DNA from: Whalleya microplaca
Lineage: Eukaryota > Ascomycota > Sordariomycetes > Xylariales > Xylariaceae
Length of the DNA stretch: 64,000 nt
Assembly (NCBI GenBank): GCA_022497155.1
Contig: MU385756.1
Coordinates: forward strand, 1-64,000
Reading direction: 5' to 3'
Made by a program: the position numbers and the translations under genes
Shown: piece after piece, positions 1,034 through 58,173 of the stretch
Position numbering within the stretch: position 1 is the first letter of the stretch
Layout: every line of letters begins with the position of its first letter
The notes under the pieces: generated by a model
What the model was told of the DNA's origin: nothing
Seen by the model: the letters and a program-made list of their open reading frames with translations, nothing else
Database searches by the model: none

Positions 1034-1265
1034 TTTATAGATGGATTATTATAGCTAGAGGCAGGGCTTTAGTATGGGTACTAATTATATATTTATAAAT
1101 AGATAGGGAGAAAAGTTATTTCGGACTATAGAAATTGCTTAGAAAATTTAAGCCGGATATCCCGCCGAGCGGTAACTATTTTGCCGTACCGTTGCCGATT
1201 AACATACGGGAGTACGTAATAATAGGTAGTCCGTACATTATATAAATACGTACTTTCTATAACTA
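1034..1265 (-). repeat. 3' LTR (left copy)
   Basis: This 232-bp copy aligns without gaps to 7710-7941. By hand I count about 36 differences (roughly 84% identity), and all are transitions (A/G or C/T). The best-conserved core is around 1190-1215. It is the 3' LTR because pol runs on the minus strand. Confidence 0.93.
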
Positions 1266-2399: not shown

Positions 2400-2545
2400 A
2401 TATACATTCATTATTTCGACCTGTCCCACTATTTTATAATACCTTAATATAATAAATTTAAGCTCGATACCTATTATCTTAAACAACTTATCGGTAAACC
2501 CTGCTATAAATTAAAGCCCGCTATCGCTAACGATATTTTTAGGTA
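2400..2545 (-). pseudogene. Integrase core remnant of the gypsy element
   Basis: Minus-strand translation gives a degraded version of the conserved gypsy integrase stretch: a VSD.G start, then GF..KLFK..GI, then a segment matching the usual STAYHPQTDGQTER.N block, here with GQVEIMN. Stops and RIP-type changes interrupt it. It acts as the main landmark for element family and orientation and has no remaining function. Confidence 0.85.
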
Positions 2546-3949: not shown

Positions 3950-4215
3950 TCGTTTAGGTAATATAAAATTCGCATTTTTTAAAATCTATCTAAAAACTTA
4001 CGTCTTTTAATCGCTAAAAAACTTTTTATATATAAATATAATTTTTTTAATAAATTTTAAAAAAATTAAGATATTATTTATATATACGCTACAAAAATCG
4101 TTAAAAAAATCAAATAGCGCGTTATTAATATATCGTTAGAAAATAAAAGGCCCGTTTATAAGCCCGAAAAAAAAAACTTTATATTTATACGCGCCGTACC
4201 GTATCCGGAACGTCG
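3950..4215 (-). pseudogene. Reverse transcriptase core remnant, catalytic DD changed to NN
   Basis: The minus strand reads through the gypsy RT palm region: a segment resembling MPFGLTNAPATFQRYIN (here FFFGLINGPFIFQRYIN), then ALFDF..DF, then YINNILIF at plus 4063-4084 where active elements have Y-V/L-DDILIF. Both catalytic aspartate codons now read AAT (Asn), which a G to A change at the first base of GAT would produce. A following segment matches the K-CEF region. Multiple stops follow. RT activity is lost. Confidence 0.88.
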
Positions 4216-5500
4216 TAAGGTTTTTGTTTTTTAGCCGTATATAGATACGGTAGAAAACCTATCGCACGTTAATTTTAGTAAAAATTTTAGCTTTAGAAAT
4301 TCTCGCTAAAGTTTTTTTAATAAGCGGCAAAAGGTATCTATTCTTTTTTATAAGTGTATTTAACTTCTAATAATTTATATAAAACTATAATCTACCGTTA
4401 GCCTTAAAAATAAATAATATAGGGGCCGCTTAAAAAGTTAAACTAGAAACTATAAATCTTTTACGGAAATTCTTATTAAAATATTTGCGTATTATTTCTA
4501 ATTCGTCTAACGATATTTTATATAAAAAGCTATACCTTAAATTTATAGCTAACTTCCCTTTTTCTTATTTTATTTTATAATTAAAAGTTCGGTTAAATAG
4601 TAAAGTATCTAAGTTAATTTTACTAAAGGTGCGGAATAAATTCCGGTATTTTTTTAAAATAGCTTCCTATACTTTTTTTTTTAAATTTTCCGCTTCTCTT
4701 TTAAAAAAGGCGTCGTTTTTTTTATCCCGTATTAATTGGTCGATTTTATATAATATAGTTATATAAATATAAGTTTTCCGTACTACCCTAAAAAAAGATT
4801 CCGTATTAATAACTATTATATCTATAAGCTTTTATTTATACTAGCCGATTATATTTTTTCGCAATTTATAGGCGCCTTTTATATTATATTTTTACTCGCT
4901 TTTTTTTTTTTTAGCGCGTTTTTTTTGCGGGATAAAAGGTTCGGGAGACCCTAATTCTAAATATATATTCCGGTTTATAAAATCCTGCTATATAGGCTTA
5001 TTAAGCTATTTTCGGGAACGCCGTTAAACAATCTCCTTTAGTCGCTAACCGATAAGTTGCGCCTTAAATTTCGGTTAGGGTTTCGGGTAGCTATATAGTT
5101 TTTCCAGCTTTCGAACTCGCCGACATATAGCCTCCGTAGTCTTCTCGGTAAGTTTATATTTACGTTATATTTTAGTCCTAAAAGCTCGACTATTAACACG
5201 TCGCTTCTCGTTTTTATCTAATGTTTTATTATAATAATTAGCGTTTAACTAAAAGGAGCTATCCCTAAAAAGATTTCCCGTATCCTTTATATTAAGGTCG
5301 TATAAACTTAAGGGGTTATTACGTAATATATTTTCGGGATATATTAATTACCGATACCGATAGTTTATTAATACGTCCTTTCTGGCTAATTAGCCCCGTC
5401 CTAAGATTAAATTATACTTTATATTTATTACAAGAAAAACCTTATCGCGGAATATATAATTATTTATTTATAGATTTAGCCGTAAAGCCTTATTAATTAT

Positions 5501-5692
5501 TTAGACTCCTTTTTTATTATATCCTTTAATATAGCCTAAAATAAATTCCGTAACAACCTTTAAATATAAATATTGTTTTACTTTTTTTACAAAAAATCTA
5601 CTTATTATAATATAAATATTTGCTCCGGTATTACTAAATATATTTTTTATTTTTAATAAAAAGCTATATATTAACAATATATATTTTAACAA
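5501..5692 (-). pseudogene. Retroviral-type aspartic protease remnant
   Basis: A 63-codon minus-strand open stretch contains SNTGANIYIIISRFFVKK. This resembles the D-S/T-GAN.....S..F segment of gypsy proteases with the catalytic Asp changed to Asn. Its place upstream of RT on the minus strand fits the gag-PR-RT-RH-IN order. The call rests on one motif, so it is moderate. Confidence 0.6.
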
Positions 5693-7709
5693 AAGCGGTA
5701 TTCCGCCTAAATAGGCATTTAAAAAGTCCCGGGGAACCTTTACTACCAGATTAACTAAACTAACTTATAATATTTCGGCCTTAGAAATAAAGTCTAATTA
5801 TTTTAAAGTATCGCGTTTCCTAGCTTTTTCTTAATCCGGTTTTCTGCCGGAACTTTTATAACTTCCTCGGGTCAAATAAATTTTATAAAAAAAGCATTAA
5901 TACGGGTAGCTTTATTTATTACAAACTAATTAAAGCGTTAATTAAGGTATAGCGGGTATAGGTAATTAATTTTATTATATTTTTTATTATAATAATTAAA
6001 GTAGCGTTTTTTAAACTTTGCCAGGTCGGTACCGCTATAGAGCGGGAGATATATACGAATATCGGAAGAAATAATTACTATATTACCGAGCTCGTTCGAC
6101 CTTAAGCTAAGAGCCGATTACGGTATATTTCCTCCGGTAATATACTCGTTATAAGTTATTCCCGAAAATTAAGGTTTAGCCGCTAGCTTAATTACTATAG
6201 TTTTAATAGCTCGGATTATGTTACGCGTTTCGTTAGCCATTTAAAAAGTAAATATAATTTCGACGTAATAAATAATATAGCAATTAAAATTATATAATAA
6301 GTTAAAATATTAAACAGCTATTTCAGTCTATAAATAATAAATAAGTCGATTATAGAACTTTTTTTTTTATTTATCGCGATATAGTTATTATTTTTCCGCT
6401 AGCGCGATAAATTTATTTCGGAACTTCTAAAAGTTTTCTAACGTTTTTATCTAAAGCTCGATAAATTTAGCTTTTACTTATCGAACGCTATTAAGGTTAT
6501 ATTATTCTTTCTAAAAGTATTTTATTAATGCCGTAAACGTAATTAGGTAATGCGAGTTAATAAAACAAAAATAAAGCTTTAATTACGTTAATATATATTT
6601 TTAGATATATAATTTAATAGTTGCTATATATATACGATTAGTCGGGAAATAATTAGCGTTAATAAATAATTGATTTTTCTATTTATAATATTATATTTCG
6701 AAAATAATAATATTACGGTTAATCTCGCTATAATAAATAAGAACGTTAACTTTTATTATCTTTTTTTTGCTTATATTAAATTCCGATACGCTTTATCGAA
6801 AGCTTTAAATTAATAGGTTTATAATAACTTAATTAGTCTTGTTTAAACGTATATTAAAATTGTTAATTTAAGTATCGCATTATTCGATTTCCTTTTATAA
6901 GTTTTTAGCTATATTTTTTTAGGCTTTATTTATTTAAAAACCTAATCGGACTAAAGCGTTTGCGTTTAATAAGTAATTTTTCGCTATAAAGTTTATAATT
7001 TAGGTCTGTTAAAAAAAGGCTATAAATATAATGTTACGGAGCCGAATTTTATAAAAAAAAGCGTCGGGATCGGCTAAACACATTTTAAAAAATGCCGATT
7101 TAATAAAAGTTCCGTCCGTTATAAAAAAGGCCTTTTTTTTTGATTTAATAAAGGCTTTAAACGGGAAGGTGGGGCCTTTTCCGCCTTTTATATATACGTT
7201 AGCTATATATAATTCGGTACGCGCCTTAAGGTTATCCAGTAGGGTATTAACAACTAATTAATATATTCCTTTTTTAAATTCCTTATTTTTAACCATTCGC
7301 TTAAAATTTTAAAAAGTCGGGAAGGTATCGTTATTTTTCTTTTTTTCGCGTAATATCTAAGTTATTTAATCGAAATCCTTTAAAATATATTAACGTTTTT
7401 TAACGGCTTAATACCTAAGGGCGGTTTTAGGTTCCTTAAAACAATCGGTCGGCATTACTTTTTATATCTTTTAGGCATTGTACGTAATAGTATTACGCGC
7501 GTAAGCGCGTTCTTAATTGGTAAGCGACATCTTAAAAAGATCTAGCGCCAATCGGGTTAATTAAGTCAGTTATCGGCAGTATATATAGGGGTTATATAAC
7601 TAAAATTATTAATACTAAAACACGTTCTTATAATAGTATTAATTAATCAAATCGGTATTTAGGGAACTTAAGCCTTTTTAAACTATATAATAAATATAAT
7701 CTATTTATA

Positions 7710-7941
7710 TTTATAAATAAATTACTATAGCTAAAGGTAGGGCTTTAATATAAGTATTAATTATATATTTATAAATAAATAGGGAGAAAAGCTATTTCGG
7801 ACTATAGGAATTATTTAAAAAACTTAAGCCGGGTATCCCGCCGGGCGGTAACCATTTTGCCGTGCCGTTACCGATTAACATACGGGAGTATGTAGCAACA
7901 GGTGGTCCGTGCACCACACAGGTACGTACCTTCCGTAACTA
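7710..7941 (-). repeat. 5' LTR (right copy)
   Basis: This 232-bp repeat is the partner of 1034-1265. It keeps more C and G than the left copy at its right end (7890-7935), where the left copy reads A/T. RIP has therefore hit the two copies unequally. Confidence 0.93.
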
Positions 7942-8810
7942 TATAAAATAAAAAAATATCGGTATTATTTGCGACATTTAGGCATTCCGTTTAAATAAAA
8001 TTAAAAATAATATTTATTTTTAATAATCTCGTTTATTAAAACTAGCTAAAATTAAACCTATTATAATTTTAAAATATATTATTAATAAAATAATTATAAA
8101 ATAATCTAATATATTATAACATTTATATTAATAAGGTATATTTATATTTTAGTTTTTACGGCAGCTTTTTTTTTAAAATTACCGGATATAAAGTTATTAT
8201 TCGAATTAAATTAAAGAAGTTTTTAAATATAAATTAAATACTTAATATTTATTTTTTTTATTACGTACTATATTAGTTTCCTTAATTCCCGTTTTTATAA
8301 AAAACTATTTAATTTGATTTAAAAAATATTATAAAAAATTATAAAATAGTTTTATAATAATATCGAAAAACTATTAAATCGTTATTTTTTATTACCTAAA
8401 TATATAAGTAATTAATCCGATAAAAATATTAAAATTATTATTTATAAATTAATTTATTATATTAAAAAACTATTAAATAAGGCGTTTTTTAAAAAATTAA
8501 TATTTTTTATAATATTATTAAAAGAAAACTCGACTTTTATTATAATTAACTATATGTTAAAATTAGAAATATTTAAATTAAGTCGGAAAAATATAAATAA
8601 TAAAAAACTTAATAATTTTTTAGTTTTAGTTTATTAGCCGGAACGTAACTAATTAAATATTAATAAGTTATAATAAAGTTAGTTTTTAATAATATCTAAT
8701 TACTTATAATTATTTTAATATTATTTTATTATATTAAAATTTATTTTTATAAATAGCTATAATACAATTAGTTAATATTTTAATTTTTTACGTAAGACTT
8801 AATAGGACTG
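7942..8810. other. AT-rich RIP-degraded DNA, right of LTR element
   Basis: The segment has long A/T runs, scattered TA dinucleotides and no open frame of useful length. Its composition matches the retrotransposon interior. It is probably a second, unrecognisable RIP-mutated repeat into or beside which the LTR element inserted. Confidence 0.75.
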
Positions 8811-11991: not shown

Positions 11992-13161
11992 TCACAGGAA
12001 GTCCCGGCCCGAAGAACGTATAGCAGGCCTCAGATTGCACTGAGGATTGTCCAGTAGAATGTATTCCCGGGGTGTGCGGTCGTGCGGCCACTCCACCCCC
12101 CAGCTGTCAAAAATCGGGTCCTCCGAAAAGGTCGCCGCTTTAACCTCGAAGTCGCTCAGTTCCGCCTCCATGTTGCAGAGGTGTAGGAGTCCAGGCCCGG
12201 CCCACTGGTCGATAAGCTGGGCGATGCGCTGGAAGCCGTTAGTGTGGCCGCCGCATTCCCCGGACTGGAACCCGCACACGATGAACAGGTAGCTGTGGAT
12301 GAGCTCGTGGATGAACGTCGATATGAGCAGCCGCCGGTTGTACTTCCTGTCCTTGAGTATCTGTCGCGATAGGAAGATCAGGGTCTCGTAGCCCGGCGCC
12401 AAGGGCGACTTCCGGAGCGCCGTAGTGCCGACGAGGCTGCTGGAGAGGTCCTTCCAGGCCCAAGTGACGCGGCCCTTCAACCGTCCACGGAAAAAAATCT
12501 CGTTGGCGGCGTAGAATATGCCTTGGAGAGCAACATCATCTATGTCGAATTCGGCATCGCGAGACTTTGGACAGATGAGGCTCCTCAGGATCCGTTCGTG
12601 CTGGGAAAGCCGGCTCCGTCGACGGGTGTCCGAAAGGTCGGCTTCAACTAGCCTCGCTGCAGCGTCGTGATCCTTGTCTTTCGTGTGCGTGGAGTAATTG
12701 ATATCGTGTGGATCAGACGTTCGAACTTTTAAGTGCTCAAATAGCGTATCATGCCGTGCTTCGGCGGAGTAAGAGGAAGACATGACGGGGTTCTGAGATA
12801 TTATCCGGTTCCCAGATGAGTCTCGCCCGGTGGTGTTAGCTTCCTTGATGATGAAGAATGCCGGCGTCAGACTCCGGCCGAAGTCCACGCTCTGGAGAGC
12901 GTCGGGATAGGCGGTGAGCCGGTGACGCTTTAACGGTGGGAGCATGCCGAAGTTGCTCTGTAGGTCCGATAGTTCGGAGTAGCTGGGGCGCCGTTTCCTC
13001 GTCTCGAAGTGCCGACGGTGGTCGCAGTATATGTCGTCAGGAAGAGAAGAGTCGCTTGATGAACGCGACATCTCTGTCCCTCCGACATAGAAACCCGCCA
13101 TCGGACATGCTTGAAAGGATTCTGATTCAGTGTCGAAGGCGAAAGTCGTACGGGGTACCAC
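11992..13161 (-). CDS. SprT-like zinc metalloprotease domain protein
   Basis: Single-exon frame of 389 residues. The C-terminal half carries a SprT-like domain: an I-S-T-FIHELIHSYLF segment around residues 280-295 gives the HExxH zinc/catalytic motif, and GGHTNGF about 15-20 residues later supplies the expected third His. SprT/Spartan relatives cleave DNA-bound proteins or act as chromatin-associated proteases, but this protein lacks recognisable PCNA or ubiquitin-binding motifs, so its substrate is unknown. The first ~190 residues are charged, Ser-rich and probably disordered. Start M1 at 13161 gives the longest frame; M21 (13101) is an alternative. It is transcribed in the same direction as the F-box gene at 15.2-17.3 kb but 2 kb away. 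Confidence 0.82.
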   Translation of the reverse strand: MVPRTTFAFDTESESFQACPMAGFYVGGTEMSRSSSDSSLPDDIYCDHRRHFETRKRRPSYSELSDLQSNFGMLPPLKRHRLTAYPDALQSVDFGRSLTPAFFIIKEANTTGRDSSGNRIISQNPVMSSSYSAEARHDTLFEHLKVRTSDPHDINYSTHTKDKDHDAAARLVEADLSDTRRRSRLSQHERILRSLICPKSRDAEFDIDDVALQGIFYAANEIFFRGRLKGRVTWAWKDLSSSLVGTTALRKSPLAPGYETLIFLSRQILKDRKYNRRLLISTFIHELIHSYLFIVCGFQSGECGGHTNGFQRIAQLIDQWAGPGLLHLCNMEAELSDFEVKAATFSEDPIFDSWGVEWPHDRTPREYILLDNPQCNLRPAIRSSGRDFL

Positions 13162-24335: not shown

Positions 24336-27300
24336 TCATCCTTGCGTCTGCTCCTGCTCGCCGAACACAATCCGCCTCAAACTCTCCCTCTCACCGCTCT
24401 GCTCGCACATCGCCCTAAACAACCCGAATCCCCCTTCTTCCCCATCCTCACCCTCAACCCTGCGCTCCCACAACTCCCTCGGCGAGCCGTACTCAGCGAC
24501 CTTGCCATCGCTGAGCACGAGGATGCGGTCAAAATCCGCAATAGTACTGAGCCGATGCGCGATGACCAGCAACGTGCCGCCGCCGCGCGCGCCGCCGAAC
24601 TCCTCGCGGATGCTGCGCTGGATCAGCGCGTCGGTGCCCATGTCGACGGCGCTGGTCGCCTCGTCCAGCACCATGACCTTGGGGCGCGCGACGAGCGCGC
24701 GCGCCAGGCAGAGCAGCTGCCGCTGGCCCTGCGACAGGTTCAGGCCGCCCTCGGAGATGGGGGAGGTTAGGGAGGCGAAGATGTTCGTGTTCTTCTTCTT
24801 GGCCGCGGTCGTCGGGGTTATCGGGGTGTTGGGGGTAATCGGAGTGTTGGGGTTCGTGGGGATCAGTGTGCTGGAGGAGGACGACGAAGACAGGGAGGAA
24901 GCATTAGGGTTGTTAGGGTCGGAGGAGGGGATCAGGTGCACGCGCGCGAGCGCGTCGAACAGCTCCGCGTCGGTGTGGTTATCGAAGGGGTCGAGGTTCG
25001 AGCGCACGGAGCCGCTGAACAGCACGGGGTCCTGCGGTATGATGGCGAGGCGGCTGCGCAGGTCGTGCAGGCGGATCTTGGCGATGTCGAGCCCGTCGAT
25101 GTGGATGCTGCCCGACTGCGCCTCGAGGAAGCGGAAGAAGGCCAGCGTCAGCGACGACTTGCCCGCCCCCGTGCGCCCCACCACGCCCACGCGCTGGTTG
25201 CGCTCGATCGTGAAGGTCAGGCCCTTGAGCACGGGGGCCAGGTCCGATGCGTAGCTGACTACGAGGTCGTGGACTTCGACTCGCCCTTCGGTCGGCCAGG
25301 CTGCGGGTGGGCGCGCGCCCTCCAGGCTCTCGGTTGGGAGCTCGGTGTACTCTACGATGCGCTCTGCGGCGTTCATCTCGAGCTCGACGTTGGCGTAGTG
25401 GCGGACGGTCCACATTACTAGGCCATGCGTTAGTCTATTACAACATAGCACTTAAGAGAAGGAAGGAACTAGTGTTATCTTTGCACGAAATCCTTATACA
25501 TACCATGACCTGAGAATTCCAGCCCGAAGGCGAGAGCGAACCCAGCCAGCGCGGGGTCGATGTTGGGAACAAGCAGAATGATGATAGCAACGAAGGAAGC
25601 AAAGAAGCTGCCAACAACAGCCATGCGCCATCCCATCCAGCGGTTGAACAGCCACAGGTGCCAGGTCGCCACCGTCCAGTCGTCCAGCTTCTTGTACATA
25701 CGGTCGATGTACGTCTGGCTCTTATCAAACGATCGAATGGTCAACACACCAGTCAACGCCGAGCCGAACTGCTCGAAGACGGGGGACTTGGTAGTGGATT
25801 CGAGACGTTTGACCGGTCTCGCGCCGTGCAGGTACTGACGGGCGTAGAACCAGCAGATCAGGAGGAGCACAGCCGCCAAGGCGATGATGATAGGTGAGAC
25901 GAACAAGCCGGCGACCACCACACCCATCATGTTCAGGAACGAGCCGACCGCATAGCCGCATTGGTAGGCAAGATGCGTGTCAATGGAGTGGAAGTCAGCG
26001 GTGAACCGGTTCAGGATCCGGCCCACGGGCACCGTATCTAGCCACCTAAGAGGCGCCCGGAGGACCATGAAGTTGAGCTTGGCGAACAGCTGTCTCGAGG
26101 CGCGGACGGATCCGCGGAAGAGGTAGAACCACCGGGATGTCGATACGACAGCGTTGGCGATTGCGAGTAGGATGTAGATCCCTAGGTAGAACTCTAGACT
26201 GCCCTGCGACTTGACCGATGGTCGTGTTGTATTGTGCATAGTAGATTGTTGGGCGGTGAACTGGTATGTGTATGCCTCCATTTCGGCCTGGGCCTTGACG
26301 TGATGCTGCTCTTGATAGGATCCTGTCCATTCTCGTAGCCACACTATAGTATCTGGAGTCAGTATTTGTTTTTCGAGACAATTTCACCGAATTGCCTGAA
26401 GAAAGGCACCAACACAACTTATATCCCCTCAAAATATTCGAACGTATTTTGACACGTAAACCGTGCTCACGCACCATGCCAGAGGGGTTACAGAAAATGG
26501 CAGACTCACATGAACGTCCCACAATCAGGACCTGAACCGACAGGAAAATAATAACACAGCCCAGCCAATACAGCTTAGAGCCAGCGAACCGGAGATACGT
26601 CGAGTAGACCTTCCGCTTGATAGCGCCCTCTTCTCTCCCCTCTTCTTCCACAAATTTACGCGCTTTCGCCTTCGACGCGACCTTAGCAAGGGGCTCTCCA
26701 TCGGAGTTATCACCGCCGACCTGCGAAGCCTCCTCCGAGTTGACGGCGGTGTGCTCCTCGTCGTCTCGACTGCTCTCCTGCTGCTGCTGCTGCTGCTCGT
26801 GGCTCTTGATCTGCTGCAGGGTTCCGGCTTCCTCGAGGTCCGAGAGGAGCCCGGCGTTCAGCACGCGGCCCTCGCCCAGCTCGACGAGGTACTTCGTCGT
26901 GGGCTCGCACAGAGCTACGTGGTGGGTAACTAGGATTCTAGTCCGGCCGACACAGAGCTCGCCGTTGAGACATTCCTCGAGGATGTGGCGGCCGACATGG
27001 GCATCTACGGCGCTGAATATGTCGTCTAAGATAAGTAATCCGGCGCGACTGTAAATAGCTCGTGCGAGGCTATAAGAAGCAGGTCAGTAATCAGCCATGA
27101 AATACCCCTAAATACCTAGGATTATAATCACGTCGACGTAACAGCCATATGATAGCCAATCCTCATACCTCCCATGTCTTGATTGATAGTCTGGGGAAAT
27201 CATGACTTACGTAATACGCCACTTCTGTCCACCACTCAAATTAATACCATTGGCCCCAATCTCCGTATTCTCCCCATCAGAGAACATCTCCATATCCTTC

Positions 27301-33742: not shown

Positions 33743-36099
33743 ATGAAGCCGACTCCTCATATTGTCAATTTTCATGACAAGAATGCGCCCATTTACTCGG
33801 TTCACTTCGAGCCTCCCCACGGCAAGGGCCGCTTAGCTACGGGAGGCGGGGACAACAATGTTCGCGTATGGAAGGTAGAAAGTGACGGCGAGGATCGCAG
33901 GGTCGACTACCTAGCAACCCTCGCCAAACACAGTCAAGCTGTCAACGTGGTTCGGTGGGCTCCCAAGGGCGAGACACTGGCGTCTGCCGGAGATGACGGG
34001 AATGTGATCCTGTGGGCCCCTAACGAAGGTCACGCCCCGACAAGCAACTTTGGAAACGAGGGTCTGGAAGACAAGGAATCATGGCGAACGAAACATATGT
34101 TTCGACCTACCGGGTCGGAGATATACGATCTAGCTTGGTCTCCGGATGCCACCTACTTCATAATCGGTAGTATGGATAATGTAGCCCGGATATACAATGC
34201 AGGCACAGGTGCGTAGTCGTCTGGTTCCTTTCCAAGTTTCTACACGCCGGTAAACTTACACCCCAAGCAGGTTCCCTGATACGACAAATTGCTGAACATA
34301 GTCATTACGTGCAAGGCGTTGCCTGGGACCCCCTGAACGAGTATATCGCGACTCAATCGTCGGATCGGTCCGTCCACATCTATTCACTCAAGACTAAAGA
34401 CGGTCAGTACACGTTGACTAGTCATGACGAGAAAACGACCAAGATTGCGAGCCATGCCAAGATGGATCTGCCTCCTAGCCGCATCTCGTCAAGCAGTCCT
34501 GCACCACCAGATATGGGATATCGTGCTCAACTTGCAGCTGCCGTCGACACGCCTAGCGCCTCCATTGGATCGCCAGTGCCGTCCACCCCGGGGACACCGC
34601 AATCCGTGCCCCTGCCTATGAACCCTCCGAGCGTTGTCAGTCATAGTAGACGGTCTTCGTTTTCATCAAGACGATCTGCATCTCCTGCGCCGTCATTGCC
34701 TCTGCCTGCGGTAATGCCGATTGAAAAGTCTCCAAAACCCAACTTTAGTATCAGTGCGGGAATGAAGAACGCAAGTCTTTACGCCAACGAGACCCTCACC
34801 TCTTTCTTTAGACGCTTGACTTTCACCCCAGATGGTAGCCTACTTCTGACCCCTGCTGGCCAATACCAAGTGCAACACCAGGCTGAAGGTTCTAAACCTA
34901 CGTATGAAGTTATTAATACCGTCTACATCTATACCCGTGGCGGTATCAACAAACCCCCTATTGCCCATCTTCCCGGCCACAAGAAGCCTTCGGTTGCCAT
35001 CAGATGCTCCCCGGCTATTTATACCCTCAGACAGTCCCCACCAGTCACCAAACATATCACAATCGACACGTCTTCAGCAGAAGAGCCTATTCCAGCTCTT
35101 CCTGAGCCCGTCTCGAGGCCATCCCCGGCTGTGATGGATCCTCCCCCACCCCCAACTTCTGCGGCACCCGAGCCCGAGAAGGCATCCACCCCGTCTAGGT
35201 CCTTGAATTTAGAGACGGGGCCATCGACACCTGGGCCTAAGCCAACATTCGCGCTACCATACCGCATGGTGTATGCTGTGGCGACGCAAGACTCCGTTCT
35301 CCTCTATGATACCCAACAAACCACACCTCTCTGCATCGTTAGTAACCTGCATTTAGCCACATTTACTGACCTTACTTGGTATGACTTATCCACCCCCCCC
35401 TGAAGTATTACAAATATCTAACTAGTCTGTCTGTATAGGTCGAGCGATGGCTTAACGCTTCTAATCTCTTCATCCGATGGTTTCTGCTCAACACTCTCCT
35501 TTACCCCAGGCGAGTTGGGCCAAGAGTACAAAGGCGAGCTAGCAGGCACGAAAAACGCCCCTCCCGCAAGCGCAGGAGGTCCCCCATCAGCCCAGGCAGC
35601 CACCGCCACCACCCCCATACCCACACCCACATCCGCCTTCGCGCCCCCCTCGCCCTTCCCCGGCGGCCACCAGCACCGCAACTCCGCCACCTCGTCCTCC
35701 TTCGCCGCGCCCTCCCCGCCGACGACGGCCTCCTTCGTGGGCAGCGCGCAGCAGCAGCGTCCCTCGTCGCCCGCGCGCTCGAACTCGACGTCCTCGATAG
35801 CGACGCAGGGCTCCGTGATGAACAACCCGCCGCTCATCGGCGGCAGCATCCCGAGCATCGCCGCCACCAACTCCGGCAAGGTCACCGGCGTCCCCATGCC
35901 CATCGCCACGCCGCCCGAGACGCCCGCCCCTTCTGCCCCCGCCAGTAGCAGCAATAACATCGCTGCCGGCGTCAAGCGCGACGCGGCGGCGGAGAACGAG
36001 AAGGATGAGAGTGGTGGTGGTGGTGGTGGTGGTGGTGGTGGGGACAGCCAGCCGAAGAAGCGGAGGATAGCGCCTACGCCCGTCACGGACTCGCGCTAG
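33743..36099 (+). CDS. CAC2: Chromatin assembly factor 1 p60 subunit (WD40)
   Basis: Three exons: 33743-34208, 34271-35378 and 35439-36099 (introns 62 and 60 nt). The join gives 744 residues. WD40 repeats begin at residue ~15 (APIYSVHFEP, then RLATGGGDNNVRVWKV) and continue with HSQAVNVVRWAPKGETLASAGDDG, EIYDLAWSPDATYFIIGSMD and HYVQGVAWDPLNEYIATQSSDR. This series is diagnostic of CAF-1 p60/Cac2. The complex deposits H3-H4 behind replication forks with PCNA, so the protein acts in the nucleus. A Ser/Pro-rich insert (residues ~240-330) sits inside the propeller. The C-terminal tail is Pro/Ala/Ser-rich, has a long Gly run, and ends with a basic KKRR segment, a possible NLS. The start ATG has context GTCACAATG and gives the expected N-terminus. 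The second splice restores a TW-SSDG junction that retention would truncate at 35401. Confidence 0.93.
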
Positions 36100-36586
36100 G
36101 TATCGCGTGTACGTGTACGTAGGTAGGTAGGTCGTAGGGGAGCAATGCGGCTGTATGTAGCAAGGCAAGGCAAGACAAGGCAAGGCAAGGCAAGGCGAGT
36201 GTTTGTTTGTATGGTTGGCTGGTATGGGGAGGAGAGGTGGGTTTTGCGCAAGGGGAGGGGAGAGGGACAAACGAAAATTCATTCGTTGGTTTGGCGGCGT
36301 TATGGATACCTATTGATTGATTGATTGATTGATTGGGCTTGGCACACTACTACTTTCCCGCATACCGCATACCGCATACCGCATACCGCATACCGCATAC
36401 CACACGCACATCGTTCAGTCTATGTAATCCGGTCTGGTCTGTGTTGGATCCGCGGGTAGGTAGATAGGCGGCTGGGAGGCAGATAGGCAGGCAAGGGGAA
36501 GAGAGGAGACGAGAGAGAAGAGAGGAGGAGAGAGGAGAGAAGAGGATAAATAAACGCTGGATCCCTCTCGCGAGTTTATTAGATAA

Positions 36587-39534: not shown

Positions 39535-41885
39535 GTCAACGAAGAATTGGGACCTGTTATTCCATCCTCGCAAGGGGAACATCAGCTAGGCTTTGAGAGA
39601 TGACGCCTACGATCCTCCTCAGGACCTAGATAGGTATTGGAAGCGGGTTAGATAAGGCGGCTACCACAGAAGATTTATATACCATGATAATGCCGTGCAT
39701 TCCTAACCGAGCCGCCTGCCTCAACCAAAAAAGCAGCATTGGTCAATGGGTAGGTTTGTCGGCCAGATAAAATCCCCAATGGGGTTTTTCGTAGAGACCT
39801 GGGTTCAAGTCACCGGTGTAGTTCTGACTCATCACCGCTGCGGGCGCTTGACATCCAGTATCGAGCTTTTTTGTTAAATTAAGATAGATAATATATATTT
39901 TTTCTTCTTTTTATTTTTTTTCTCATAAGCCCTTTCTCCTAAGGCCTCCCATAGTACAGATCCGATTCTTACTTTCTCCTAGAACTTAGGAGCCCTGCCT
40001 GCTCTCAATGCAATTGAGCATTACACATCAACCGGAACTAGACGGCGATGAAGTCCCAGCCACCCGGCGCGGTGCGCGGCACGCTTTCGCTCATAATCCT
40101 AGGTATGTAGGGCTGCGTCTTGTTACACGGCAGGACAATTACGCGGCTTTAGACCGCGTTTCGCGGTGTCTCAGAAACACCTAGGCTAAGCAAACTTGCC
40201 CGTATGTCTCGGTAGTCTTTTGTTCCCAGCTGAAAACCTAGCTTTACTAGACGCGAGAAACATGTGTTGTCAAAAGGCCAAGACATTGGTATGCTGTACG
40301 TAGCTTGTCGAGGCTTATATATTGCGACAGATGCAGACGGTCTAGTCCGACGTGAGGTTTGATATGGAGGTGGAATTACCCACAACTGCGCGCAGTGGCT
40401 CCCAATAATCAATATCCGAGGTAGCGAATCAATTCTTATAATTGCAGCCCTTCATGGTAGATTGTACAATACCGTTTCTCATAGTCTGTTCTTGGCAGCA
40501 AACTGGTGCAAACGGCCAGCAGTGCTTCGGGTACCACGGCATTGCTAATCTTCTGCTATTGGCTAGGTATCGAGGGATGATAGGATTTCTGGTGTGTCGA
40601 CTGCAAGCTATTCTATTAAGTGAGACGGGATTGTTATCTTCTGCAAAAGTAAGACCGATGTTTGGGATTGTCTAGGACTCAGCCACAGGCATCTGGCAAC
40701 TCCCGTTTCCTCCGCAGTCACAAATCAGTTCCGTTGCGTTTCGTGACTTCGACAATTGGGCCTATTAGGAGAAGGGCGTTAGGATGATCTGTGATTCTTA
40801 GGAGTTTATTGGCTTTAATTTTATTTGTGCTGCTGACTGATGGGTTCGACATTTGCAGAATCAAGTCACACTTTTGAGCTGACGATACATATGCATACAT
40901 CCATCCATAGGCTAGACAGGTAGGCACTAAAATAGCGTAAGCGTTGATGTTCTTTGTTGCTACTAACATATTGAATCAGCTTACGGAATATTCGAATTAG
41001 GTTCTTAAGTAATATGTCACATACACACATTTCACATAGCCTATTGAATAAAATGTGAGTGTGTGTGTAGGTAGACAGGTAGGCTATGTTTATATAAGTC
41101 CGGATTTAGTTTTAACCCGTTGTCCTAGCTCCCGGAAAAGTCGGCGTCTTGTAAGTGGCCGTCACATGTGTATCCTCGCGATTGATTGCCCGGATAGCGG
41201 CTTTTGAACTTCTCGGATCGTCGGCCAAGATGTCACTACTGCAAGGTACGTACCGCAATTTCTCCATACTACCTACGGTGAGCGCATACTACGCAGTACA
41301 TATATTGAACCTGGCAGAGCTGAATCAGACGTCCGCAGTCAGCTCATATCTGGTCATTTTTTAACCCTCACAACTCACTGCCACCGCCGTCTTGTCGAAT
41401 CATTGATACCATATCCACACAGCCCCAATATCTCATCCCGATATCCATCCCAATTCTTTGAATTCCCACCTCATACATACGTGTAGGTATCGTTATCACC
41501 GCTGTTATGTAATCTGTAAGTGAGGCGCTATACCAGTAGTATACACTAACAAAGCCAAACCCCCGTCCCCGTCCCCGTCCCTCACAATATCAAAGAGTTA
41601 GCGGCGTAGCTTTCTCCATAACATTTCTCCATACTTTGTAATGTTGGTTGGTGCCGGTGAGAAGGAAATGTTGCACTGTTGCGGCTGGCTGGCCCAGTGA
41701 CGCAAGTTTCCCAATAATTTCCCAGATTGTCCGTGTCTAAGTCCGGTGGCTTCGCTTGTGTAGATTAATATGTATAACTAACATGCCTCGCAGTTCCCCC
41801 TAGCCTTTCGGCCTTTTCCATGACTTGTTTATCACCCTCTCTCTCTGGTTGACCAACCTTGCGAGCGAGCGAGCGAGCAAGCACA
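39535..41885. other. Intergenic with a tRNA-like or SINE-like patch
   Basis: No protein gene is supported. A tRNA-like patch is described separately at 39733-39825. There is a T-rich run at 39890-39925, a CCCCGTCC repeat at 41563-41581 and a GAGC repeat at 41865-41878 just before the phospholipase start. The final 400 bp probably hold the phospholipase promoter. Confidence 0.55.
39733..39825 (+). other. tRNA-like patch with A-box and B-box matches
   Basis: TGGTCAATGGG at 39740-39750 fits the polymerase III A-box consensus, and GGTTCAAGTCA at 39802-39812 is close to the B-box. Spacing is 51 nt. The would-be T stem has mismatches and no good acceptor stem forms, so this is not a working tRNA. 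It could be a decayed tRNA or a tRNA-derived SINE head, followed by a T-rich tail. Confidence 0.25.
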
Positions 41886-43862
41886 ATGCATATTTTTCGC
41901 CATTTTCTTCCTTTTCCTCTAGTCTCCCTTCTTTCCGCCGCTCTTGCGTCACCGAGCGGTAGTCATCTCGACCATGACGTTTTTATCGGCTCTCGAGGTG
42001 ATGCAGTGCGACGTGCTGCTCCGGACAACCCGTCCCATGGGTATGCGCCCGCCACTGTAGACTGCCCTCAACAACGCCCAACGATCCGGAATGCCGCGAA
42101 CCTGTCGCAGTCGGAGAGGGACTGGCTGCAGATCCGAAGGCCGAAGACCGTCGACCCCATGGTCGCCTTCTTCAAGAACGCGGGCCTCGACGATTTTGAC
42201 GCTGCAGGGTACATTAACTCGCACTCGCAGAACTTCTCCATTGTCCCCAACATCGGGATAGCTGTGTCCGGTGGCGGGTACCGAGCCCTGATGAATGGTG
42301 CTGGTTTCATTGCTGCTGCAGACAGTCGTGTGCCAGGGTCGACGGACACCGGAGGCATCGGTAATCTCTTGCAGGCTAGCACGTATCTAGCCGGCCTTTC
42401 CGGTGGTGGCTGGTTGGTGGGCTCGATCTACGCCAACAACTTCTCGAGCGTCCAGCAATTACGAGACGGGTACCAGGGTTCGTCGCTTTGGCAGTTCTCC
42501 AACTCCATCTTCCAGGGTCCGAAAGACACCGGCCTCTCGATCCTCAACACCGCCGAGTACTGGAAGGACGTCAACGACCAGATCAGCGACAAGCGAGACG
42601 CCGGCTATGATGTCTCCGTCACCGATCCGTGGGGCCGCGCCCTCTCGTACCAGCTCATCAACGCGCAGGATGGCGGCCCGGCCTACACGTTTTCGTCGAT
42701 CCAGGACTGGGACAGCTTCACCGCCGCCAACGTCCCCATGCCAATCCTGGTGGCCGATGAGCGGGCGCCCAACACGATGATTGTCTCTATGAATTCGACT
42801 GTGTTCGAGTTCAACCCGTGGGAAATGGGCTCATTTGATCCAACGGTGTACGGCTTTGCGCCGACGCGCTACGTCGGCTCCAACTTCACTAATGGCAGCG
42901 TCCCCAGCAACGGGCACTGCGTGCGCGGGTTCGACGCATATAGCTTCGTCATGGGTACTAGTAGCTCGCTCTTTAACGCCTTCCTCCTGCAGAACCTGTC
43001 GTCGCCCGACGTACCGTCTTTCATCACTACCGCCGTCGAGAATATACTGACGGACATCGGTAACGACAACAATGACATCGCCGTCTGGCGCCCTAACCCC
43101 TTCTACGGCTACCACCCGGGCTCTAACGGAAACGCCGACACGCAGCAGCTCTCCCTCGTCGACGGCGGCCTCGACCTGCAGAACATCCCACTGCACCCGC
43201 TGATCCAGCCACCGCGGGCGCTAGACGTGATCTTCGCTGTCGACTCATCTGCAGACACGACGTACAACTGGCCGAACGGAACGGCGCTGCGGGCGACTTA
43301 TGAGCGCAGCCAGGAGGCTATCGCCAACAGGACGACATTCCCAGCGATCCCGGACGCCGAAACGTTCATAAACCTAGGACTGAACGCGCGCCCGACCTTC
43401 TTCGGGTGCAACACGTCGGCGTTCAACACTTCGGCGGCCGCCATCCCGCCGCTGGTCGTCTACGTCCCCAACACGCCCTACACGGCCTGGAGCAACGTGT
43501 CGACCTTCGATCCCTCGTACCCCGCCGATGAGCGTAACAGCATCATCAAGAACGGCTTCAACGTCGCCACGCGGGGAAACGGCACCGCCGGCGACTCCAA
43601 GTGGCCCGCCTGCGTCGCCTGCGCCGTGCTCAGCCGCAGCCTCGAGCGCACGAACACCGCGGTCTCGGCTACGTGCCGCGATTGCTTCAGCCGGTATTGC
43701 TGGAACGGCACCACGGACAGCACGCCCGTGGGCAGCTACGAGCCGACCCCGAGCTTGGAGCTCGACGCGAAGAGCGGCGCCGAACAGCATTCCCTTGTTG
43801 CGGCGGGGAACGCGTTGGTTTGGAGCATGGTTGGATTTGCAGGGTTGGTTCTTGCGTTCTAG
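41886..43862 (+). CDS. Lysophospholipase / phospholipase B, GPI-anchored type
   Basis: Intronless, 658 residues from the ATG at 41886; an in-frame ATG at 41859 would put nine extra residues before the signal peptide. The signal peptide is MHIFRHFLPFPLVSLLSAALAS. The PLA2_B catalytic domain shows the oxyanion segment SGGGYRAL (S128-R133), the nucleophile elbow GLSGGGW (Ser172) and the catalytic Asp in LVDGGLDLQN (Asp426). Family enzymes remove both acyl chains from phospholipids and lysophospholipids, at the cell surface or outside it. Many N-x-S/T sites fit heavy glycosylation. The C-terminus has a short hydrophobic tail ending VGFAGLVLAF after a polar spacer, as for a GPI anchor. Cysteines cluster near residues 580-610 (CVACAVL and CRDCFSRYC). 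No sign of decay was found. Confidence 0.95.
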   Translation: MHIFRHFLPFPLVSLLSAALASPSGSHLDHDVFIGSRGDAVRRAAPDNPSHGYAPATVDCPQQRPTIRNAANLSQSERDWLQIRRPKTVDPMVAFFKNAGLDDFDAAGYINSHSQNFSIVPNIGIAVSGGGYRALMNGAGFIAAADSRVPGSTDTGGIGNLLQASTYLAGLSGGGWLVGSIYANNFSSVQQLRDGYQGSSLWQFSNSIFQGPKDTGLSILNTAEYWKDVNDQISDKRDAGYDVSVTDPWGRALSYQLINAQDGGPAYTFSSIQDWDSFTAANVPMPILVADERAPNTMIVSMNSTVFEFNPWEMGSFDPTVYGFAPTRYVGSNFTNGSVPSNGHCVRGFDAYSFVMGTSSSLFNAFLLQNLSSPDVPSFITTAVENILTDIGNDNNDIAVWRPNPFYGYHPGSNGNADTQQLSLVDGGLDLQNIPLHPLIQPPRALDVIFAVDSSADTTYNWPNGTALRATYERSQEAIANRTTFPAIPDAETFINLGLNARPTFFGCNTSAFNTSAAAIPPLVVYVPNTPYTAWSNVSTFDPSYPADERNSIIKNGFNVATRGNGTAGDSKWPACVACAVLSRSLERTNTAVSATCRDCFSRYCWNGTTDSTPVGSYEPTPSLELDAKSGAEQHSLVAAGNALVWSMVGFAGLVLAF

Positions 43863-48848: not shown

Positions 48849-50800
48849 GTGGACGAGCCTCTTCATTGCACCCATTATGAGGTAACCGATCTATTGTGCG
48901 AGTGCCTAAACGACATGCATCCCGCACCAAGTCTAATGGAATCCTTTCCCAAAGACAGCAAGACAGACGATAGAGATAGATCTCAACATGTCTCGCATCA
49001 GCATGATCAGCAGCAACAACAACAGCAGCAGCAGCAGCAGCCGCAACCTCACCAAGCTGCTACACATCCTGACCACGTGCATATAAAGAGTCATCCGGCC
49101 TCTCCAAGCCAGTCCTCACCTCCGGTTAGGAAAGACACAGGTTCTTCTACCTCGACAACTGCTACCGATTCGACGGTGGTCACTAATGTCTCGACTGACA
49201 CCAACGCAACAGCCTACAGTGTAGAATCCTCTCAGTCCATCTTCTCAGTCAAAGATGGTTCCGAGATATCTCACACTCGTCGGGCAAGCCGCCGCCGAAC
49301 CGGGCCTCTGTCCGCCCAGCAGAGAGAAAAAGCTGCGTTGATTAGGAAGCTGGGCGCGTGCGCCGACTGCAGAAGGCGGAGAGTTGCTGTAAGTCACTTA
49401 CCTGCCTCCTTTTCTTCGGCCCCCAAGGGTCTCTAGACTCTGGGCTCATGCTCACATAATCATCACCGAAAAAGTGCCATCCAAACCATCATAATATGAC
49501 TTGGGAAGATGCCATGCGGAAGTATCGGTCGTCTAGCCCATTGCAAGATCTAGCGCCCTTGGCAGGTCGTCCGATCAGCCCCGCGCCGAACCATGTTAGA
49601 TCTCACTTCACTCAGGATCCTCAGGAGATGGAAATCGACTCCCACCCTAATCACACTAATACTCAGACTACTCCAGGACGTGCACCGCTCAGTGAATCAA
49701 GAATTCGGACGCCCTTGCCCTCGGGTCCGCGGCTAGAGAAGCCCATCTCCATGCCACCTCTAGCTGCCGCACCACATCCCTTTCCCCCTTTGCCGAACCC
49801 CGATGCAATCAAAACAGATCTAGAAAATACTGCTGCGAGGGTGCTTTCATCACCCTACCGTAGTCGTTATACCAAGGTCTTTGCACTCCTGATATGTTGG
49901 CAGGACGACGAAGAACCGGGCGTGACGGCCGGCGTGGAAGAACTAGGCCAAGTATTCAATAAATACTATCACTACGAGCTTGAGACCATCAAGATCCCGC
50001 CGTCCGCCTCGGATGGCTGTACTAGCTCGTGGAGGTGGCTCTCGCGGATCATTAACGAATTCACGGATAAAAACGACACTAGGGACGTTCTGAAGATCGT
50101 CTACTACAATGGGTATAGTTACTTGGATGAGCATAGGGAGATGGTTCTGGCAAGGCGAGTTGACCGGACGCCGGCTTAAGGACATCGAAAAATGCTAACT
50201 TTGGGCAGTTCTCGGAGTCGCGAGCAGGCCTCGACTATTCGGTGGAGTGGTATTCAGCAAATTCTAGAGGAAGCTTGCTCAGACACGCTGATAATCATGG
50301 ATGCTGCGTACTATCCATCTTCAAAGATGGTACGCCAAAAGGGGGTGCTGGAGCTAATTGCGGCGTCTACGTCGGAAGACTACTTCAACGTTCTGGATCG
50401 GAGTAGCTTCACCCGGACGCTCGCCGACCAGCTCCGAACGCGAGCCACACAGCGTCTCCCGAACGCCCTCTCGGCAGCCGAACTTCATTCGAAACTCTTA
50501 TCCATCTACCCAAAGATCATCCACGACAAACATCCCGAAAGAGGAGCAGCCATAAGCTTCCTTTCACCACTGCATATGCAGGTGTCTGGGAGCTCGAGGT
50601 TACCTTCGATTACGTTATTACCGCCTCAGCAGCCACGGACGTTCTTCACCCCTGAGAATTCCCGTGGCCCCCAAGTGACTTTCTCGATACGTTTGACTGA
50701 AGAGACTCTCAATCTTGAGAGCTGGGCCGAATGGCTTCGGGTGATGCCGGAAGGCATCAGAGAAGTCAAAGTCGATGGTCCATATAATACGTTTAGGTGA
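48849..50800 (+). CDS. Partial zinc-cluster motif fused to a caspase-like pseudoenzyme domain
   Basis: Three exons: 48849-49388, 49475-50154 and 50209-50800. Intron 1 is 86 nt (GTAAGT-AG). Intron 2 is 54 nt and uses a GC-AG boundary (GCGAGT, branch TGCTAAC). The join gives 603 residues. The N-terminus is Gln/His/Ser-rich with an 11-Gln run. Residues ~146-190 read RRTGPLS..QREKAA..RKLGAC.DCRRRRVACHPNHHN: Cys171, Cys174 and Cys181 with nearby His, a partial Zn2Cys6-like finger followed by MTWEDAMRKY. Residues ~330-470 resemble a caspase p20 fold: a core strand with ALLICW, YYHYELE, LKIVYYNGY where active relatives have GGH, and LIIMDAAYY where they have DCC. His is Tyr394 and Cys is Ala439, so proteolysis is unlikely. 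A DNA- or protein-binding role is inferred. ATGs at 48915 and 48939 are alternative starts. Confidence 0.75.
50155..50208 (+). other. GC-AG intron
   Basis: The intron starts GCGAGT after exon bases AG and ends CAG, with a perfect TGCTAAC branch motif ~14 nt before the acceptor. The nearby GT at 50159 gives the wrong frame. Using GC keeps the frame and the conserved A-S-S-R-S-R-E-Q continuation. Reading straight through would end at a TAA near 50176. Confidence 0.8.
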
Positions 50801-51959: not shown

Positions 51960-52781
51960 CTACTCCGGGACCACGGCCTCCCCCCGCCCATCCAAAACGA
52001 ACCTCACACTCGCGCCCACGACGCTCTTCCAGAACGCAAACTCGCCCTCGTCCCGCGGCGCATACACAAGCACATACCCCCACGGCGCGCCCACGACCCT
52101 GGCCCCGCTGAGCTTATGCCGCTCGGCCCAGCCGGCCTCGATCAGCGCCGCCGCGTCGGCCGGCGAGAGCATGCAGTGCGTGCTGCCCTCGGGGTGCACG
52201 TGCACGAACTCGCCCGGGTTGCCACCCAGGTGGCGCGGCAGCGGCGCTTGCCCGTCGCCCTTGCGCAGCCAGAGGGACGTGTGGCTTGGGCCCTCGAGCA
52301 CGGAGGGCTTGGTCTCGACGAGGCCGGCGTTGGACTGCGCTACGGCTTCCAGGAACGCGTTCTGTGCCTCGATCTGCGCGGGCGAGGCTCGCTGGCTCGT
52401 CTGCCGCTGCGGGGCGACGGGGGTTGGGACCACGGGACGGGATCCCTTTCTCTGCGGTAGGGGAAGGGGCGTGGGAGTGGGAGTGCTGGTGAAGAAGGAG
52501 GTCCGCACCGCGGAGCCGTACAGCGGCTCCAGGTCCTCGGGGCGGTAGGGCGCCGGCACGCGCGTGTCGGAGCGCGCGATCAGGTGCAATGTCGCCTGCG
52601 CGAGCCAGCCGAGGAAGTGGTACGGCACGCCGCCGCGGCCGAGTGCCAGCCACGCCCGGTAATTCTTGTAAGTATAAGTTAGGAGCGGGGCGGTGGCGAG
52701 TGCGGCCGCGGTGCCGATGAGGAGCGGTTTCCGGTGTGCTTGGAGCGTTTCTGGGCGCAGGAAGCGCTGGAGGGTTGCCAT
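51960..52781 (-). CDS. DUF5519/luciferase-domain protein with N-terminal membrane helix
   Basis: Single exon, 273 residues. A hydrophobic helix (residues ~20-38, ALATAPLLTYTY) near the N-terminus is followed by a Pro-rich segment with low complexity (T-P-T-P-T-P and similar). The C-terminal ~110 residues match the fungal DUF5519/luciferase-type domain: LPRHLGGNPGEFVHVHPEGSTHC, LSPADAAALIEAGWAERH and GYVLVYAPRDEGEFAFW. The V-H-V-H-P segment could bind a metal, but no activity is established for this group. The protein is probably membrane-bound with the domain on one side. Codon use is GC-rich relative to its flanks. Start M1 at 52781 is the natural one. Confidence 0.8.
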   Translation of the reverse strand: MATLQRFLRPETLQAHRKPLLIGTAAALATAPLLTYTYKNYRAWLALGRGGVPYHFLGWLAQATLHLIARSDTRVPAPYRPEDLEPLYGSAVRTSFFTSTPTPTPLPLPQRKGSRPVVPTPVAPQRQTSQRASPAQIEAQNAFLEAVAQSNAGLVETKPSVLEGPSHTSLWLRKGDGQAPLPRHLGGNPGEFVHVHPEGSTHCMLSPADAAALIEAGWAERHKLSGARVVGAPWGYVLVYAPRDEGEFAFWKSVVGASVRFVLDGRGEAVVPE

Positions 52782-56430: not shown

Positions 56431-58173
56431 TCAGTGATGCTCATGTCCATGGTCATGCTGGTGCTCGTGGCTGTGAGCCGTCGAGTGACTAGACCGCCGG
56501 GTCGACTCAGCCTTCGAAGCAGCCTTGGAGGGCACGGTGCAGCATCCCTGGCCGACACAGTCATCTACACATTCCAGAAGACAGCCGTCACCTCCGGGTC
56601 GTGGAGATTGCTGTCCGTCAAGCGTAACAGAACCATCCTCATGGGTGCAATCCTGGTCTAGGCAAAACTCCGGCTGGATGGTGGCACTGTGGATGCCATA
56701 TGCGTGGAGACACTTCCGAGCCTGTTTGGCGAGCTTCATGTACTTCTCTCCTCCTTCGTCTGTGATAGGAAACGCGATTTGGATGTGCATGGAAGCAACG
56801 ATCTTCGTGTCAGAAAGTTGCCAGATGTGGACGTGGTGGCAACTGATCACTCCCTCGAGGGCCTGGATGTCATCTTTGATGTCCTGAAGATCAATGTGAT
56901 CCGGGGTGGCCTGTAGGAGAACCTTGGAAGTTGCTTTGGTGAGGGGGATTGTCGTCTTGAGGATGATGAGGGTAATGAACAGCGACACAGCCGGGTCAGC
57001 ATAGATGCGGCCGGGCCAATCGGTGAGCCAGACAATCAGAGCCGTGACAATGACACCAACATTTCCCAGCGCATCACCCAGAACATGAAGAACCATAGCG
57101 TTCATGCCCATATCAGAATGGTTGTGGCCGTGGCTCTGGGCCTTCTTTTTGGATGCCGGCTTGTTGTGGTGGTGCTCTCTGTGAACCCCAGAATCGCGTC
57201 TTGTGCGACGAGAGGTAGACCGTATGGCGTGTACAACCTTCTGTATAGTTCCATTGTCCTTCCCGTTATCCTTGGCGAGCAGATGAGTGTGCTCATCCGC
57301 ATCTGGCTCGTCACGGACCGCAGAATCACTCGTAGAACCGTCTTCGGTGGAGCTCTCGTCCGTCTCGTTTCCGTTACGACCCGATCTGCTATGATCAATG
57401 ATCTCCTGTCTGAAGCTAGCAGGGTGGATGCTGAAGTCGTCGATACTAGCCAAACGACTGTGCTTAAGGCTGCCTGTACGCCGGCGCTCTCGTCCTCTAG
57501 GCGTAGAGCCACGGCTGTTACCTCGCTCGGAGCCCTCCGGTTTTCGGCCGAAGTGGATGTGACCAACATTATCCCGGGAAGATGCAGCTTGTGCTCTCGC
57601 CAATGCGGCCTCAGGGAAGATGTCCGTGATCGGACCATCGTCGTCGACTAGTGTTCGCGTCTCGTTCGCTCTGCCCTCTTCGACTGCAGCAGGATCATCG
57701 TGTTGGTGAACGTGTTCATGGCCATGTTCGTGTTCGCCCTCGTGGGAATGATCGTGTCCGTGACTGTGGCCATGTCCTCCTAGAACAAGGAAGCCAACAA
57801 GATTTGACGCCAATCCGCAACAGCCGACAATGAGGATGAGCTTCGGATTCGAGATTTCCTGAGGCTCGAGGAACCGGGTGAGCGCTTCGAGGATGATGGT
57901 GACACACAGGGCAATCAGGAAAACGGAGTTGTAGGAAGCGCCCAGAATCTCAGACCTAACAAGTCCGTAAGAGAACTGGTTTGTTGTCGCTCTTTTGGCT
58001 GCCTTCACTGCGCACAAGCCGATGATAAGAGAAATGATGTCGTTGAGCATGTGGAATGCGTCGGCCTGAAGAGCCAGGGAGTGGACAACGAGTCCAGATA
58101 CTAGTTCGATCGAGAAGAAGGCGACATCAATGGCCAGCATGATGCTGATCCGGGTGGATTTGGACCACGCCAT
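56431..58173 (-). CDS. ZRC1: Vacuolar-type zinc transporter (CDF/ZnT family)
   Basis: Intronless, 580 residues. The membrane core holds six helices in the order typical of cation diffusion facilitators. The zinc site is visible as ADAFHMLND (His41, Asp45) in TM2 and LHVLGDALGN in TM5. A long His-rich loop (GGHGHSHGHDHSHEGEHEHG and following) lies between TM4 and TM5, then an acidic, Ser/Arg-rich stretch. The C-terminus has another His-rich end (HSHEHQHDHGHEHH) and a Cys-rich block. The profile matches Zrc1/Cot1, which imports zinc into the vacuole in exchange for protons and gives zinc resistance. The His loop is likely to sense or bind zinc. The start at MAWSKSTR fits the family. Confidence 0.93.
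   Translation of the reverse strand: MAWSKSTRISIMLAIDVAFFSIELVSGLVVHSLALQADAFHMLNDIISLIIGLCAVKAAKRATTNQFSYGLVRSEILGASYNSVFLIALCVTIILEALTRFLEPQEISNPKLILIVGCCGLASNLVGFLVLGGHGHSHGHDHSHEGEHEHGHEHVHQHDDPAAVEEGRANETRTLVDDDGPITDIFPEAALARAQAASSRDNVGHIHFGRKPEGSERGNSRGSTPRGRERRRTGSLKHSRLASIDDFSIHPASFRQEIIDHSRSGRNGNETDESSTEDGSTSDSAVRDEPDADEHTHLLAKDNGKDNGTIQKVVHAIRSTSRRTRRDSGVHREHHHNKPASKKKAQSHGHNHSDMGMNAMVLHVLGDALGNVGVIVTALIVWLTDWPGRIYADPAVSLFITLIILKTTIPLTKATSKVLLQATPDHIDLQDIKDDIQALEGVISCHHVHIWQLSDTKIVASMHIQIAFPITDEGGEKYMKLAKQARKCLHAYGIHSATIQPEFCLDQDCTHEDGSVTLDGQQSPRPGGDGCLLECVDDCVGQGCCTVPSKAASKAESTRRSSHSTAHSHEHQHDHGHEHH

Follow-up and report, generated by a model that had tools for sequence, protein, structure and literature searches.

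A predicted caspase-like protein that lacks the catalytic cysteine and carries a partial zinc-cluster motif in Whalleya microplaca

The gene and its product

A stretch of 64,000 nucleotides from the ascomycete Whalleya microplaca (GenBank assembly GCA_022497155.1, contig MU385756.1, positions 1 to 64,000 of the forward strand; referred to below as the window) holds a gene for a putative pseudo-caspase, in which a zinc motif precedes a caspase-like domain whose catalytic cysteine is absent from every homologue aligned. According to our splice model, the gene has three exons on the + strand (48915-50800) and its product is 581 amino acids long. The start codon is the ATG giving MHPAPSL, which is the consensus across 69 orthologues; the GTG at 48849 used in an earlier interpretation made without database searches (the sequence-only reading) lies upstream of it. 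In the protein, residues 1-119 are of low complexity, residues 120-176 comprise a basic stretch and GACADCRRRRVACHPNHHNMTWED, the caspase-like domain spans residues 289-503, and a short C-terminal module occupies residues ~546-581. The parts of the gene are as follows.

48915..49388, + strand: exon 1, with the low-complexity N-terminus, the basic stretch, and C149 and C152 (splice model, orthologue ATG consensus and column counts)
Within exon 1: conserved basic stretch, RRASRRRTGPLSAQQREKAALIRKLGA
49359..49388, + strand: first part of the zinc motif, C149 to A158 (CADCRRRRVA; splice model)
49389..49474, + strand: intron 1 (GT-AG), falling inside the zinc motif, after A158 and before C159
49475..49492, + strand: second part of the zinc motif, C159 H160 P161 N162 H163 H164 (splice model)
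49475..50154, + strand: exon 2, with the end of the zinc motif, a linker and the first half of the predicted caspase fold (from ~49865)
50114..50116, + strand: codon of Tyr372, which stands where the catalytic His would be (GYS here, GGH in the homeodomain paralogue described below)
50155..50208, + strand: intron 2 (GC-AG), phase 2 (splice model)
50209..50800, + strand: exon 3, with the second half of the predicted caspase fold (to ~50563), then the C-terminal module; stop codon at 50798
50303..50308, + strand: two Ala codons, 417 and 418, facing D-C-C in the alignment, with Ala418 at the catalytic Cys position
~50690-50797, + strand: C-terminal module, common to the homeodomain paralogue (family profile comparison)

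Intron 2, of the GC-AG type, contains a clear GCTAAC branch-like site (50155-50208). The junction within the zinc motif at intron 1 is misplaced in several orthologue gene models. Several homologues bear the public name 'tyrosine-protein phosphatase non-receptor type 6', which we take as an automatic label; the window protein has no Pfam phosphatase domain, and we found no paper for parts of this phosphatase-type name.

Evidence for a caspase fold

For one orthologue, an AlphaFold2 model was built on an alignment of 69 of 120 proteins; in a fold search against known structures it was found to resemble caspases, paracaspases and metacaspases. The modelled C-terminal region has the caspase alpha/beta fold (clan CD, C14-like), in agreement with the sequence-only reading, which had proposed a caspase-like fold there; on the basis of the model we consider that this region is a caspase fold. 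Searches with single sequences were uninformative. The window protein alone gave one chance match in Pfam at expectation values (E) up to 10, with no match to Peptidase_C14 (PF00656), and one chance match in a phmmer search of PDB sequences, and a profile of the 69 orthologues retrieved no caspase from the PDB sequences. The evidence for the fold therefore consists of the structure model, profile comparison and motifs. With E up to 10, PF00656 matches two of the 69 orthologues (best E 0.0089), and a further orthologue outside that set, P0259, lies above the PF00656 cut-off (23.3 versus 21.4 bits). The nearest NCBIfam model, for the window family and the homeodomain family alike, is that of the bacterial EACC1-associated caspases (NF047832; E 6.4e-4 for orthologue P0003 and 2.1e-7 for homeodomain paralogue P0121, both far under the curated cut-off). 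Passages of PMC7159879 describe a two-gene system of bacteria in which the partner of these caspases spans the membrane.

Loss of the catalytic dyad

To describe the active site and zinc motif we used 153 aligned rows, comprising the window protein and all 152 fetched homologues, with none dropped. The two homologue searches reported 253 and 238 matches, of which the best 120 of each were listed and together gave the 152; the Cys counts below hold for this set. The named rows in both listings are Sordariomycetes, as read from organism names. Orthologues from Podospora and Triangularia (P0052, P0259 and P0268) are among them.

Cys is found in none of the 153 rows at the catalytic Cys position (residue 418), which is occupied by Ala (127 rows), Thr (14), Val (5), Pro (4), Ile (2) or Met (1). 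The preceding residue, 417, is Ala in 97 rows, Ser in 38 and Cys in 18, and Asp416 of the D-x-C motif is kept in 153 of 153. This Asp is an acidic pocket residue. Its pocket role is backed by passages of PMC6426788. At the His position we found His in 79 rows, Tyr in 48, Cys in 7, Phe in 6 and a gap in 3; the remaining rows have Leu, Gly or Gln (2 each) or Ser, Asn, Trp or Arg (1 each). The window protein itself has Tyr at the His position and Ala at the Cys position, and thus has neither catalytic residue of a C14 peptidase. Without the Cys, this position cannot support the normal chemistry of a cysteine protease.

Thus, Cys loss is universal within the sampled homologues and His loss is lineage-dependent. 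On a quick tree of the 153 rows, at least 12 changes between His and non-His are needed. In the 60-row clade that includes the window protein, 3 rows have His, 3 have a gap and 54 have some other residue, and in a second 60-row clade His occurs in 58. Judged by species names, with order names assigned by hand, the former clade is Xylariales and the latter Hypocreales, Glomerellales and their kin. The claim of the sequence-only reading that both catalytic residues are lost consequently holds for Cys throughout, and for His in the window protein and most of its clade; it does not describe the family, as 79 of 153 rows keep His. That reading had also allowed for local decay, with orthologues that keep a GGH and DCC pair. 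We rejected this possibility, because the absence of Cys from all rows shows nucleophile loss to be shared.

The simplest order of events is that Cys was lost first, before the sampled orthologues split, with repeated losses of His afterwards; Cys is placed first because the homeodomain paralogues keep both residues of the dyad. The tree alone cannot separate gain from loss of His, and the three His rows in the mostly Tyr clade may be regains.

The states at 417 and 418 bear on a different explanation, namely that part of the family has residual or changed chemistry using Cys417, or Ser or Thr at 417 or 418. The 18 rows with Cys417 (6 of which also have His), the 38 with Ser417, the 14 with Thr418 and the 79 with His speak in its favour, but these states form no constant pair, and the Ala-Ala of the window protein, which also has no His, would leave an enzyme in part of the family at most. 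We regard this explanation as very unlikely.

Pseudo-caspases have been described in animals, trypanosomes and bacteria (passages of PMC6426788). The pseudo-orthocaspases and pseudo-metacaspases treated there, which include YS and HS variants and MC4 and MC1 of T. brucei, resemble the window family in having a caspase fold with the dyad lost and the acidic pocket residues retained; in the YS variants Tyr replaces His. They differ in being prokaryotic or protozoan and in having Ser at the Cys position, where the window family mostly has Ala (127/153). The passages of PMC6426788 that we consulted do not mention fusion to a zinc motif.

The zinc motif and sequence conservation

The motif C-x2-C-x6-C-H-x2-H-H precedes the caspase fold and is kept in 139 of the 153 rows, so the fusion to a partial zinc-cluster motif proposed in the sequence-only reading is found across the family. 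By column, C149 and C152 are each kept in 146 rows, C159 and H163 in 145, and H160 and H164 in 143. The first half, C-x2-C-x6-C with basic residues in between, is similar to the fungal Zn2Cys6 zinc cluster (PF00172), whereas the second half in the window protein is H-x2-HH instead of three Cys. With three Cys and three His, the six-cysteine cluster is absent, and identity as a Zn2Cys6 transcription factor was rejected. The motif segment may bind zinc and DNA.

Among seven regions of the protein, the block comprising the basic stretch and zinc motif is the best conserved in the window family (0.865, versus 0.707 for the caspase fold). The homologues listed (best 120) are 54-93% identical to the window protein, with the closest listed at 93%. 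For the caspase domain, 20 species pairs were picked by organism name; mean identity to the window protein was 72% for its family, and mean identity of the homeodomain paralogue to its copy in the W. microplaca genome was 88%, with the paralogue higher in 20 of 20 pairs.

We also considered that the gene is decaying or is an annotation artefact, given that its reading frame requires one GC-AG intron and that the zinc motif is where several public gene models break. This explanation is barely credible: the start, end and zinc motif are all conserved, the 120 listed homologues retain the identities given above and share the Cys loss with all other rows, and the pattern of constraint across the zinc block and fold is unlike that of a decaying gene.

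Relatives in the same genome

The W. microplaca assembly (48.1 Mb in 114 contigs, the window being on contig C47) was searched for relatives. Apart from the window gene itself, the caspase region has matches at three loci with E up to 10, each named here for its contig.

C1, 1515897-1516677: paralogue, 33% and 31% identity, best E 7e-6, with GGHA and DCC
C14, 144108-144811: paralogue, 29% and 26% identity, best E 6e-4, with TGHG and DTC
C2, 853310-853609: relative, 28% identity, E 0.03, with GGHG and DCC

A phase-2 intron at one aligned codon, which is intron 2 of the window gene, is common to the window gene, C1 and C14. In the C1 family (121 rows, the homologues being the best 120 of 702), His is kept in 121 of 121 rows and Cys in 120, with one gap. 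Pfam identifies a homeodomain and a rhodanese domain in two proteins of this family, P0121 and P0197, the latter of which is MGG_06285. MGG_06285 is MoHOX4, which is orthologous to pah7 (PMC3360767) and to NCU00100 (PMC5666362). Altered distribution of perithecia is given as the only phenotype detected on pah7 deletion (passages of PMC3360767), and the MoHOX4 class is reported to influence conidium size (passages of PMC5666362).

The caspase-like domain and the following C-terminal module of the MoHOX4, pah7 and NCU00100 proteins are homologous to those of the window protein (hhalign E 1.9e-32 over 300 columns). These factors differ from the window protein in keeping the dyad and in carrying the homeodomain and rhodanese domain, for neither of which the window protein gives a Pfam match at E up to 10; the zinc segment of the window protein lies outside the 300 aligned columns. 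Sequence comparison indicates that the window gene and the genes for the homeodomain-rhodanese transcription factors are paralogues. The caspase-like domain with intact His-Cys dyad in that family is unreported by Pfam, the word caspase is absent from the main text of PMC3360767, and PMC5666362, in the passages seen, names the rhodanese domain only.

The C14 paralogue continues into Cys/His repeats that read as C2H2-like fingers (Pfam E 0.12). In the C2 relative (L017, 1902-4212, minus strand), a kinase-like DUF7580 segment comes next on that strand (E 4.8e-5, 23.6 bits versus a cut-off of 27). Since C2 is joined to this segment, not to a DNA-binding module, the pairing of caspase-like and DNA-binding domains is not general. 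DUF7580-type kinase-like domains occur in fungal cell-death-related proteins, and C2 possibly has a cell-death-type architecture.

These relatives bear on the suggestion, made in the sequence-only reading, of a link to cell-death and STAND systems, under which the window protein would be a regulator or decoy in a fungal STAND or metacaspase pathway. The caspase fold with lost dyad fits such a role, for which pseudo-metacaspases and c-FLIP provide precedents (passages of PMC6426788). Metacaspase-type genes whose D-S-C and D-C-C motifs are intact occur in the genome as well, and the weak C2 relative combines intact GGHG and DCC with DUF7580. In contrast, the window protein has no STAND, HET or death-type domain (Pfam, E up to 10), none appears among the best 25 of 29 Pfam families for the 69 orthologues, and the strongest relative in the genome belongs to a developmental transcription factor family. 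The DUF7580 match of C2, under its cut-off, counts in favour of the suggested link, which is weak, and we consider a cell-death role improbable. Membership in the STAND proteins was itself rejected, as the window protein has no NACHT or NB-ARC NTPase domain at the same Pfam threshold. PADLOC reported nothing for orthologues P0003 and P0259 or for homeodomain paralogue P0121.

A candidate nuclear regulator

The reading that we favour, with confidence a little short of even, is that the window protein is a conserved pseudo-protease acting as a nuclear regulator, with a zinc and basic segment and a dead caspase fold used for binding, and that it is a paralogue of the homeodomain family. Nucleophile loss in the caspase-like domain would predate the divergence of the sampled orthologues, and the domain would be joined to a short basic zinc segment forming a half Zn2Cys6-like cluster completed by His. 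This segment may anchor the protein to DNA or to a partner in chromatin, and the dead fold may bind a protein or peptide without cutting it. The protein is probably nuclear, as suggested by the DNA-binding-type domains on two of its three relatives in the genome, and the invariance of the Asp hints that the former substrate cleft may have kept its ability to bind. Peptide binding and the choice of partner are proposed by analogy: the first candidate partner would be the homeodomain-caspase paralogue, as c-FLIP is to caspase-8. c-FLIP(L) is an inactive caspase-8 homologue of animals; in our comparison, chain B is taken as caspase-8 from its numbering, so the match there is not one to c-FLIP itself.

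Several observations weigh against this regulatory reading. The window protein has no PF00172 match (Pfam, E up to 10) and its Zn2Cys6 cluster is incomplete. The AlphaFold2 model of P0121, built on 25 of 120 proteins, is of low confidence in the caspase region (most 10-residue blocks within 101-300 score below 60, the best 69), so the homology of P0121 is taken from the hhalign and NCBIfam comparisons, and the protease activity of the homeodomain paralogue is read from its dyad alone. In the C2 relative, the attached segment is kinase-like instead of DNA-binding. If the role were purely one of binding, the retention of His in 79 rows, three of them in a clade that mostly has Tyr, would be left unexplained, and the Cys417 rows, with and without His, leave a small chance of residual chemistry.

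Another possibility is that the dead caspase fold is a stand-alone assembly platform, like the N-terminal caspase-like domain of Raptor, with no tie to the homeodomain paralogue or to transcription. Pfam gives weak matches to the Raptor domain in one of the 69 orthologues (E 0.043) and in the C2H2 paralogue (E 0.027), and the loss of Cys from all rows also speaks for it; however, this explanation accounts neither for the strong conservation of the basic zinc segment nor for the DNA-binding-type modules on two of the three relatives. We judge it unlikely.

The nuclear regulator that we favour can be given a more specific form, again by analogy with c-FLIP. Filamentous ascomycetes would have a family of caspase-fold proteins, some of them tied to DNA-binding modules, in which the dead member controls its homeodomain-caspase counterpart inside the nucleus, either by forming a pair with it or through competition for its peptide substrates, as a switch in developmental transcription. 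In this detailed form the proposal is doubtful.

As far as the open-access literature reaches, no fungal pseudo-caspase with a half zinc cluster, and with homeodomain-caspase proteins as its sisters, has been described: in that literature, which misses most subscription papers, we found, among the papers listed, no fungal pseudo-caspase and no paper that treats a homeobox or homeodomain together with a caspase in fungi. A caspase-like domain with intact dyad is seen inside a known family of developmental transcription factors. If this domain is active, proteolysis and transcription would be combined in one fungal protein, for which the dead paralogue would be a natural control.

Surroundings of the gene

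Scans of the window with Rfam (gathering threshold) and for tRNA genes were empty. G+C content is 24-27% in positions 1-8000 and 47-57% in 4-kb windows from 12001 on, with 41% between; the low-G+C stretch at 1-8000 looks like mutated repeat-rich DNA. A perfect tandem repeat of CCGCATA (6.3 copies) lies at 36358-36401. The neighbours named by Pfam are ordinary genes.

11992-13161: SprT-like protein
24336-25451: ABC transporter
34309-35403: CAF1B/HIR1 propeller
41859-43862: lysophospholipase
51960-52781: luciferase-domain protein
56431-58173: cation-efflux (zinc) transporter
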